Below are positions 8,918 through 11,925 of a stretch of DNA of 64,000 bases, piece by piece. A model generated the notes under the pieces. It worked only from the letters and a program-made list of their open reading frames with translations. It searched no databases and was not told the origin of the DNA. The DNA is from Pararhizobium sp. IMCC3301 (lineage in GTDB: Bacteria; Pseudomonadota; Alphaproteobacteria; Rhizobiales; GCA-2746425). Where the stretch lies: contig NZ_CP132336.1 of the NCBI RefSeq assembly GCF_030758315.1, forward strand, positions 3,625,001 to 3,689,000. The letters run 5' to 3'. Every line of letters starts with the position of its first letter. The stretch's first letter is position 1. The position numbers and the translations under genes are program-made.

Positions 8918-10238
<1,321 letters not shown>

Positions 10239-10242
<4 letters not shown>

Positions 10243-10841
10243 CAAATCTGATTGAGCGCGAGCCCAATGATCCGCAGAAGGCGGAGATAAACCCGTTCCT
10301 CAAGCTGGCTCTGGAACTCGGGCCGCTGATCGTGTTTTTCTTCGCCAATAGCCGCTTTGGAATTTTTACCGCGACCGCCGTATTCATGGTCGCCATCTCG
10401 ATTGCGCTTGTCACGTCCTGGGTGTTGACCCGGAAGCTGGCGATGATGCCGCTGATCACCGGCATTGTGGTGCTCGTCTTCGGCAGCCTGACGCTTTATC
10501 TGCAGGACGATCTGTTCATCAAGTTAAAGCCGACCATCGTCAACAGTCTGTTTGGCGGCATCTTGCTGGGCGGCCTGTATTTCGGCAAGTCGCTGCTTGG
10601 CTATGTGTTCGACAGCGTTTTCAAACTGACCGATGAAGGCTGGCGCCTACTGACGTTTCGCTGGGGAATCTTCTTTTTTGTTCTCGCCATCATCAATGAA
10701 ATTGTCTGGCGCAATTTTTCCACAGACTTCTGGGTGTCCTTCAAGGTGTTCGGCTTCATGCCTATCACTCTGGTTTTTACCCTGGCGCAGATGCCGCTGA
10801 TTTCAAAACACAGTGTCGCCGAAGACAGTAAAAAAACTTAG
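10239..10841 (+). CDS. yciB: YciB/IspZ-family inner-membrane septation protein
   Basis: A 200-residue membrane protein with five or six hydrophobic helices and the family signature [22 protein letters not shown] near residues 22-44, plus [17 protein letters not shown] near residue 130. YciB proteins affect envelope integrity and septation in enterobacteria; the biochemical function is not settled. The ATG overlaps the ftsY stop by 4 nt, so the pair is probably translationally coupled. It ends 18 nt before the convergent DUF2794 gene. Length is typical. Confidence 0.9.
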
Positions 10842-10859: not shown

Positions 10860-11363
10860 CTATTTCGACACGACTTTCAACGGCTTTTCCAGGACTTTGA
10901 GAACCTGCGGCAGTTCATGGCCGCGCTTCAGGATGTGGCCGCTGGCGGCGACAACCTTGTACATCCCCTGTTTGCGCGCCAGTGCCGGGTCCTTCTCGAC
11001 ATAGAACATCGGCATTTCACTGGAGCGCCGGAAGATCGAAAACACGGCGCGGTCCTTCAGATGATCAATCGCATAATCGCGCCATTCTCCCCCGGCCACT
11101 TTGAAGCCGTAGATCCGCAGAATTGCTTCCAGCTCGGCCCGATTGAACGTGACCTGCTTGTGGTTGGGCTTGACGCCCGGCATGGCAGTGCCAGATCTAG
11201 CGGAAGAGGTGGGCCGAGTGGAAGATGCAGGCCTAGCGGAAGAGGCGGGCTGAGCGGAAGCGGAATCGGGAAATGAATGAATTTCGGCGCTTTGGCCTGA
11301 ACGGGTAGATTTGCGATTCGAAGCAACGGAGTTCTCATTCATGTCCGCCATAAAGCCGCCCAT
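10860..11363 (-). CDS. DUF2794-family protein
   Basis: A 167-residue protein matching the alphaproteobacterial DUF2794 family. The conserved part is the C-terminal half: VTFNRAELEAILRIYGFKVA, then EWRDYAIDHLKDRAVFSIFRRSSE and a final helix ending LEKPLKVVSK. Function is unknown. The N-terminal third is low-complexity with repeated 6-residue units (ASSARP, ASSTRP, TSSARS) encoded by a degenerate 18-bp repeat. The start is uncertain: Met codons at 11363, 11351 and slightly further in are all possible, and the repeat region is probably disordered. No signal peptide is seen. Confidence 0.8.
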   Translation of the reverse strand: MGGFMADMNENSVASNRKSTRSGQSAEIHSFPDSASAQPASSARPASSTRPTSSARSGTAMPGVKPNHKQVTFNRAELEAILRIYGFKVAGGEWRDYAIDHLKDRAVFSIFRRSSEMPMFYVEKDPALARKQGMYKVVAASGHILKRGHELPQVLKVLEKPLKVVSK

Positions 11364-11534
11364 GCTGTTGGTTTTGTGACCCTAGGATGACGTGAGTTTC
11401 GGGGTATTGCAAGCCTGGATTCCAGCCTGTTTATCGGGCGTCAGCCTCAGCACAAATAAAAAGGCTTTTTACCGTCAGACGAATTTTCATCACACTTTAT
11501 TGCAAAAAATCACAATTTTGCCCTGTTTCAGCCC

Positions 11535-11564
11535 TTGGCCAGCCATCTTGAATACCCATATTAA
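11535..11564 (+). promoter_or_regulatory. Candidate promoter for the small RNA at 11570
   Basis: A TTGGCC -35-like element at 11535-11540 is followed, after 17 nt, by an ATATTA/TATTAA -10-like element at 11558-11564. This would start transcription near 11570, just before a strongly structured stretch that ends in an intrinsic terminator. The match is by eye only. Confidence 0.4.
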
Positions 11565-11569
11565 TTGTG

Positions 11570-11702
11570 TTGCCTCAGACAGCCCGGTTTGGGACCACCC
11601 CATTCTATCAGCCCCCCAACCTGAGGGGTGACTCTCAAACCGGGTAATTTTAAAACTGAGGTACAAGCATATTTCCGGCTCCTTTCAGGGGCCGGTTTTT
11701 TT
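11570..11702 (+). ncRNA. Candidate structured small RNA with intrinsic terminator
   Basis: No convincing protein is encoded here, yet the plus strand folds well. A perfect 9-bp stem pairs CCCGGTTTG (11583-11591) with CAAACCGGG (11636-11644). Inside it, CACCCC (11596-11601) pairs with GGGGTG (11625-11630) and TCAG (11608-11611) with CTGA (11621-11624), leaving a C-rich apical loop, CCCCCCAAC. An unpaired AU-rich linker leads to a terminator hairpin at 11675-11702. A promoter-like element lies just upstream, giving a transcript of about 130 nt. C-rich loops that can pair with Shine-Dalgarno sequences are known in alphaproteobacterial trans-acting RNAs. I cannot assign a family. A cis leader of the peroxiredoxin gene 224 nt downstream is the alternative. 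Confidence 0.5.
11675..11702 (+). terminator. Rho-independent terminator (end of candidate small RNA)
   Basis: CCGGCTCCT (11675-11683) pairs with AGGGGCCGG (11687-11695) over 9 bp including one G-T pair, with a 3-nt loop, and is followed by seven T residues. There is no annotated plus-strand gene ending nearby, so it most likely terminates the noncoding transcript upstream of it. Confidence 0.9.
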
Positions 11703-11925
11703 ATGTGCGATGCCTATCCGCTTGCACCCGGTTCTCTGTTTCTCCTGTTTCAAGTGCTTTCATCCTTTTCACCGGGCTTATGTCTTCCGTTCTTCAGAAT
11801 TTGTGATGTGATGCAGCCTGGCTGACGAGGGGCGTGTGATGCCTTGAACACCTTGCCTGCACGCTTATCTGTGTTGAGCGTGCACGGCTGATGCATGGAC
11901 CCCCTACAGAAAAGGAAAACCAGAC
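11703..11925 (+). other. Leader region of the peroxiredoxin gene
   Basis: The 560-bp gap between the DUF2794 gene and the peroxiredoxin gene is mostly explained by the candidate small RNA and its terminator. The remaining 220 bp should contain the peroxiredoxin promoter and leader. I see no convincing open reading frame or repeat in it; AAAAGGA at about 11911-11917 is the ribosome-binding site of the next gene. Confidence 0.5.

Follow-up and report, generated by a model that had tools for sequence, protein, structure and literature searches.

The window (the 64,000-nucleotide stretch of DNA from Pararhizobium sp. IMCC3301 that we analyzed) appears to contain a stand-alone gene whose product is a structured small RNA, about 130 nt long. 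The RNA is divergent from a gene for a DUF2794 protein, and it belongs to an alphaproteobacterial family that is outside Rfam. We estimate the probability of this overall explanation as roughly 0.6. That the locus is a real structured RNA gene is nearly certain, judging from its sequence and that of its homologs. The features that we computed are a compensated helix, a near-invariant loop with six tandem cytosines (C6), a terminator (in this genome), promoter elements that consist of phased GCC triplets, and linkage to DUF2794. Most likely, by analogy to a known RNA from Caulobacter, this is a trans-acting RNA that pairs with G-tracts in mRNAs.

Structure and distribution of the RNA

A sequence-only reading had proposed a candidate small RNA at this locus, and both the sequence and the fold bear out the positions of the stem, the C-rich loop, the terminator (a 9-bp stem and then seven T), and the other elements that it listed (Table 1). 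The proposal is supported by the fold, the terminator, homologs, and covariation. The perfect 9-bp stem grows to 13 pairs once folded. The region 11560-11705 has a folding energy of -62.4 kcal/mol, as compared to -38.9 ± 3.9 kcal/mol for dinucleotide shuffles (z = -6.0), and none of 200 shuffles folded as well.

Table 1. Features of the small RNA locus, in window coordinates
Feature	Position	Strand	Basis or detail
DUF2794 protein (PF10984), divergent partner gene	10863-11363	-	Pfam E = 9.4e-38
Upstream site GCC-N8-GCC-N8-GCC	11520-11544	+	GCC at 11520-11522, 11531-11533, and 11542-11544; position-locked conservation in 104 promoters; matches the ChvI pattern cited in PMC9731502
TTGGCC, 17-nt spacer, ATATTA	11535-11540 and 11558-11563	+	
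-10-like element CATATT	11557-11562	+	A+T-rich columns -11 to -7 kept in 104 promoters
Likely 5' end of the RNA, with the conserved 5' segment GTTGCCTC	11569-11576	+	Alignment A2 (ten sequences)
Main hairpin	11582-11645	+	13-bp outer helix (11582-11594 with 11633-11645) and inner helix; fold
Perfect 9-bp stem, CCCGGTTTG with CAAACCGGG	11583-11591 with 11636-11644	+	
Apical C-rich loop CAGCCCCCCAACC	11609-11621	+	Also the loop of DUF2794-anchored loci whose stems are unrelated
Intrinsic terminator	11675-11702	+	9-bp stem at 11675-11695; T7 at 11696-11702

The RNA probably extends from about 11569 to 11702, with the exact start inferred by its spacing from the -10 element. In the fold of the window RNA, the 5' segment GTTGCCTC pairs with 3' sequence. 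In this genome, the fold also has an extra closing helix, in which GUUGCCUCAG at the 5' end pairs with CUGAGGUAC downstream. In some relatives, a T run directly follows the main hairpin. As the sequence-only reading held, no plus-strand gene ends here: ispZ stops at 10841, and DUF2794, which comes next, is encoded by the minus strand. We found no convincing plus-strand reading frame over the RNA. With its terminator, its conserved promoter elements, and no convincing protein over it, the locus looks like a stand-alone gene.

Compensatory changes in related Hyphomicrobiales, which the sequence-only reading had suggested looking for, are very strong. In an alignment of 98 sequences, which was fitted to the model and hence favors the structure, 99.5% of cells in the main helix (helix 2) were paired, and each of its nine pairs had changed on both sides at least once. 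Across the whole structure, we observed 239 cells with both-side changes, versus 78 in shuffles, and 0 of 500 shuffles reached any of the five observed covariation values. In control comparisons with the pairing partner slid along the sequence, pairing dropped to 21-67%. (One row of this alignment was an antisense match, which we excluded from the next alignment.) So, the secondary structure is held by compensatory change, as would be expected for a structured trans-acting RNA.

The relatives differ in both the length and the sequence of the stem, and the loop (UCAGCCCCCCARCC) is nearly fixed. For example, at locus L216, a stem of UUGACCCAGUUU...AAGCUGGGUCAA encloses UCAGCCCCCCAAG, and at L191, a stem of GCCCGGUUCCGG...CCGGAACCGGGC encloses GCCCCCCAACCCC; both stems are wholly rewritten yet paired. 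Full hairpins with unrelated stems are present at four DUF2794-anchored loci (L191, L202, L208, and L216), and the anchored loci were selected without using the RNA. Some of the loci from other orders, which were reached only via DUF2794, also bear this hairpin, and their stems are different. In 30 of 133 sequences (such as L025, L045, and L059), the 3' linker contains another C-rich motif (GGTTCAATCCCC or a sequence like it). This motif sits between the hairpin and the terminator and could be a second pairing site.

With a DNA search, we identified homologs in each of the genus's four other genomes, as well as in additional families of the order. We aligned ten homologs (A2), which were selected without use of the GTTGCCTC motif, and built a covariance model (R1) from them. 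R1 matched 133 of 297 genomes of the order (E of 0.01 or better), mostly with a single copy per genome. Beyond the order, there were few matches: 7 of 289 genomes for R1, counting the window genome, and 7 of 240 genomes for a richer model (R2). Among the matches listed from a pattern scan, the named genomes include Microvirga, Bosea, Chelatococcus, Methyloceanibacter, Hoeflea, and Parvibaculum, and there is also a Rhodopseudomonas MAG, among others. Because the search pattern itself partly forced the loop and GTTGCCTC to be conserved in the pattern-scan set, our claim of conservation rests on three sets that are free of this choice: A2, the whole-genome hits of the covariance model, and the loci fetched via DUF2794. 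The loop is kept in all three, and in the last at a subset of the loci. Two matches from Dehalococcoidia (L053 and L153) were dropped, as they are not alphaproteobacterial and no 3' stem arm was matched after the loop. At L193 and L225, a tandem pair of copies of the small RNA lies beside DUF2794, and the genome of L225 (G462) has a further copy on a different contig.

DUF2794 divergently adjoins the RNA at 117 of 133 distinct loci, including the window. (This count excludes the two chance matches from Dehalococcoidia and the second, duplicate entry of the window.) At least 4 of the 16 loci that lack DUF2794 end at the end of a contig. When we clustered the flanking reading frames, this minus-strand gene was the single constant neighbor, and the median distance from its start to the 5' end of the RNA is about 154 nt. 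DUF2794 itself was found in 129 of 240 genomes of the class. Among 46 DUF2794 loci that were fetched by protein, 18 have the C-run loop motif on the divergent strand, and none has it on the control strand. The linkage gives DUF2794, which is uncharacterized, a testable functional link. To our knowledge, most of the trans-acting RNAs that have been described are limited to one family or genus, whereas the loop and the genomic place of this RNA persist in many of the order's families and in some other orders, with the stem rewritten.

The promoter and its possible regulator

We aligned 104 upstream regions, without gaps, on the 5' end of the RNA. They have in common an AT-rich -10 region and GCC triplets at -49, -38, and -27 relative to the 5' end. 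Among 71 non-redundant promoters, GCC-N8-GCC is present in 48, while each of the other spacings is present in 1-11; the background rate for GCC-N8-GCC, in random 90-mers from the same loci, is about 9%. The sequence-only reading had instead described a promoter of the form TTGGCC, 17 nt, ATATTA. Both motifs are there, but TTGGCC is not conserved as a -35 element in the homologs, and a scan of the window promoter with the sigma-70 consensus found no site.

Eleven-base direct repeats also fit regulators of the OmpR/PhoB type in general. ChvG/ChvI governs envelope stress, symbiosis, and virulence in the alphaproteobacteria. The GCC-N8-GCC pattern upstream of the start of the RNA matches the one that ChvI of S. 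meliloti is reported to recognize (N-GCC-N8-GCC; PMC9731502, citing Ratib 2018); for Caulobacter, the same paper gives a different motif. From this short motif, we tentatively propose, at somewhat less than even odds, that transcription is controlled by a response regulator of the OmpR/PhoB type, which would most likely be ChvI. If the RNA is perhaps transcribed under the control of ChvG/ChvI, this suggests that the system may possess an RNA arm that is widely shared. Farther upstream than the GCC triplets lies another conserved block, which is TCACA-like (AAATCACA-TTT, from about -62 to -53, or near -58). This block is possibly a second regulator site or else the promoter of DUF2794.

What the C-rich loop might bind

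Since the loop is kept and the stem is free to vary, the hairpin seems to present a recognition sequence, which suggests control by pairing with G-rich messages. A base-pairing role for the loop fits its invariance, and CAGCCCCCCAACC is likely to be the target-recognition region. We infer pairing with G-tracts in mRNAs from the invariant loop and from the precedent of Caulobacter GsrN (PMC5869019). The C6 loop would pair with G-tracts (core GGGGGGCU) in target mRNAs, and this would alter the translation or the stability of those mRNAs. By analogy to the C6 loop of GsrN, we consider this mechanism probable.

As for specific targets, the mRNA for DUF2794 has no conserved G-tract, so we rejected regulation of this mRNA by the loop. 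A scan for TTGGGGGGCT in five genomes of the genus found 24 sites, of which five are the small RNA loci themselves, as compared to 6 sites for the reversed control pattern; chance could account for the hits. In three genomes, TTGGGGGGCT lies 52 nt ahead of a gene for a small membrane protein, and in a fourth it falls within that gene; the duplex energies range from -25 to -31 kcal/mol. In the window's own genome (L254), the same leader lacks the G-tract, so we view this gene as a lead only. (The gene, whose product begins with MYQQNGASCWGAARWTL, is at position 1501 of L251, L252, L253, and L255, where its leader or the region of its start contains a G6 tract, and no Pfam family matched it.)

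Alternatively, the C-rich loop might bind a protein rather than mRNA, as a titration device or a scaffold, and the protein might be the product of the DUF2794 gene. A fixed loop on a variable stem suits protein binding as well, and DUF2794 is linked divergently to the RNA across several orders, but 16 loci have no DUF2794 nearby (although some of these are the contig-end cases). AlphaFold's model of DUF2794 is confident (pLDDT of 89, with an alpha-beta5-alpha arrangement), and searches with it gave no informative structural relative (the best VIA Z was 6.7 and Foldseek's best E was 0.19), so a role for DUF2794 as the protein partner is a possibility. Phage T4 MotA and frataxin were weak matches and were given no weight. 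Among the literature matches listed for GsrN or DUF2794, we found no mention of DUF2794. Overall, we consider the protein-binding explanation to be unlikely. A broader proposal combines the two kinds of binding: an ancient alphaproteobacterial RNA-protein pair, with the RNA as an arm of ChvG/ChvI, DUF2794 as its dedicated partner, and the C6 loop addressing G-tract mRNAs across the class. This is speculative and, as a whole, less likely still.

Comparison with GsrN and other known RNAs

GsrN of Caulobacter crescentus (CCNA_R0081) has a terminator hairpin and a 5' loop with six cytosines in tandem; through this loop, it pairs with a G-rich site where the katG mRNA begins and raises KatG (PMC5869019). 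The window RNA could be this lineage's GsrN, that is, a general-stress RNA that is transcribed by sigma EcfG and whose C6 loop acts on katG-like leaders. Both are small alphaproteobacterial RNAs with a terminator hairpin, and six tandem cytosines are common to both loops (PMC5869019). In contrast, GsrN is transcribed from a sigma-T/EcfG promoter and most of its homologs are near the GSR locus, and the window RNA has neither of these features and is beside DUF2794. None of the 71 promoters contains an EcfG-type site (GGAAC-N15..18-GTT). Proximity to ecfG-nepR-phyR, which was used to recognize homologs of GsrN outside of the Caulobacteraceae, is also lacking: the RNA is about 0.9 Mb from its genome's NepR locus, where the model has no match. 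By promoter and position, the identification with GsrN is therefore unlikely.

The RNA is very unlikely to be a leader or attenuator of the peroxiredoxin gene, which starts 224 nt past the terminator on the same strand, because peroxiredoxin is nearby only within this genus and at varying distance (about 600 nt further in two of those genomes); also, a strong terminator separates the two, and elsewhere the downstream genes are variable (about 39 loci have htpG). With the downstream gene differing among homologs, the sequence-only reading's preference for a stand-alone RNA holds up.

Nor could that reading match the RNA to a named family, and Rfam 15 agrees: at the gathering threshold, the only hits in the whole window are RNase P RNA (RF00010, 56203-56648, + strand) and ffh small RNA (RF01793, 3596-3647, - strand), both of which are elsewhere. 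A permissive scan of 11400-11925 (E up to 10) gave only weak matches and no family; the best were L10_leader (23.9 of 44 bits) and Hrs13 (23.7 of 52 bits). 6S RNA (RF00013) does not match here, and this genome's 6S RNA is at G000:C1:2322281-2322441. Also elsewhere in the window, a long Pro-Glu dipeptide repeat is found close to the N terminus of FtsY (9143-9304) and is encoded in a simple DNA repeat.

Among the RNAs of the Rhizobiales, SmelA075 and SmelA099 (cuckoo or alpha-r14) likewise have variable stems and conserved C-rich loops (PMC3927594). Cuckoo RNAs have CCUCCUCCC loops in three or four hairpins and are present in many copies (PMC3927594), while the window RNA has a single hairpin, mostly one copy, and the loop CAGCCCCCCARCC. 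Without several CCUCCUCCC-loop hairpins, it does not belong to that family. The loop of EcpR1 (SmelC291), UCCGCCGCAUCU, is not found in the window RNA's family either. PmaR of Agrobacterium, which we compared by its description, is similar in that a long, spoon-like stem presents an accessible C-rich loop, but it is reported to be confined to Agrobacterium and one Rhizobium, and it lies between two hypothetical genes (PMC6234868). ChvR of Caulobacter crescentus is a small RNA under the control of ChvI-ChvG (PMC6237742), which for the window RNA is only proposed, from the promoter motif. ChvR is reported only from C. crescentus, is upstream of recF, and pairs with chvT via two stem-loops; its genomic place is different. 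Individual members may already have strain-specific names, and they may sit in strain-specific catalogs (for instance among the Bradyrhizobium BjrC RNAs, such as BjrC68, 80, 174, or 1505). Overall, the printed loops of the Rhizobiales families differ from this one, and the window RNA seems to represent a family that is new to Rfam but of a kind that is already known.
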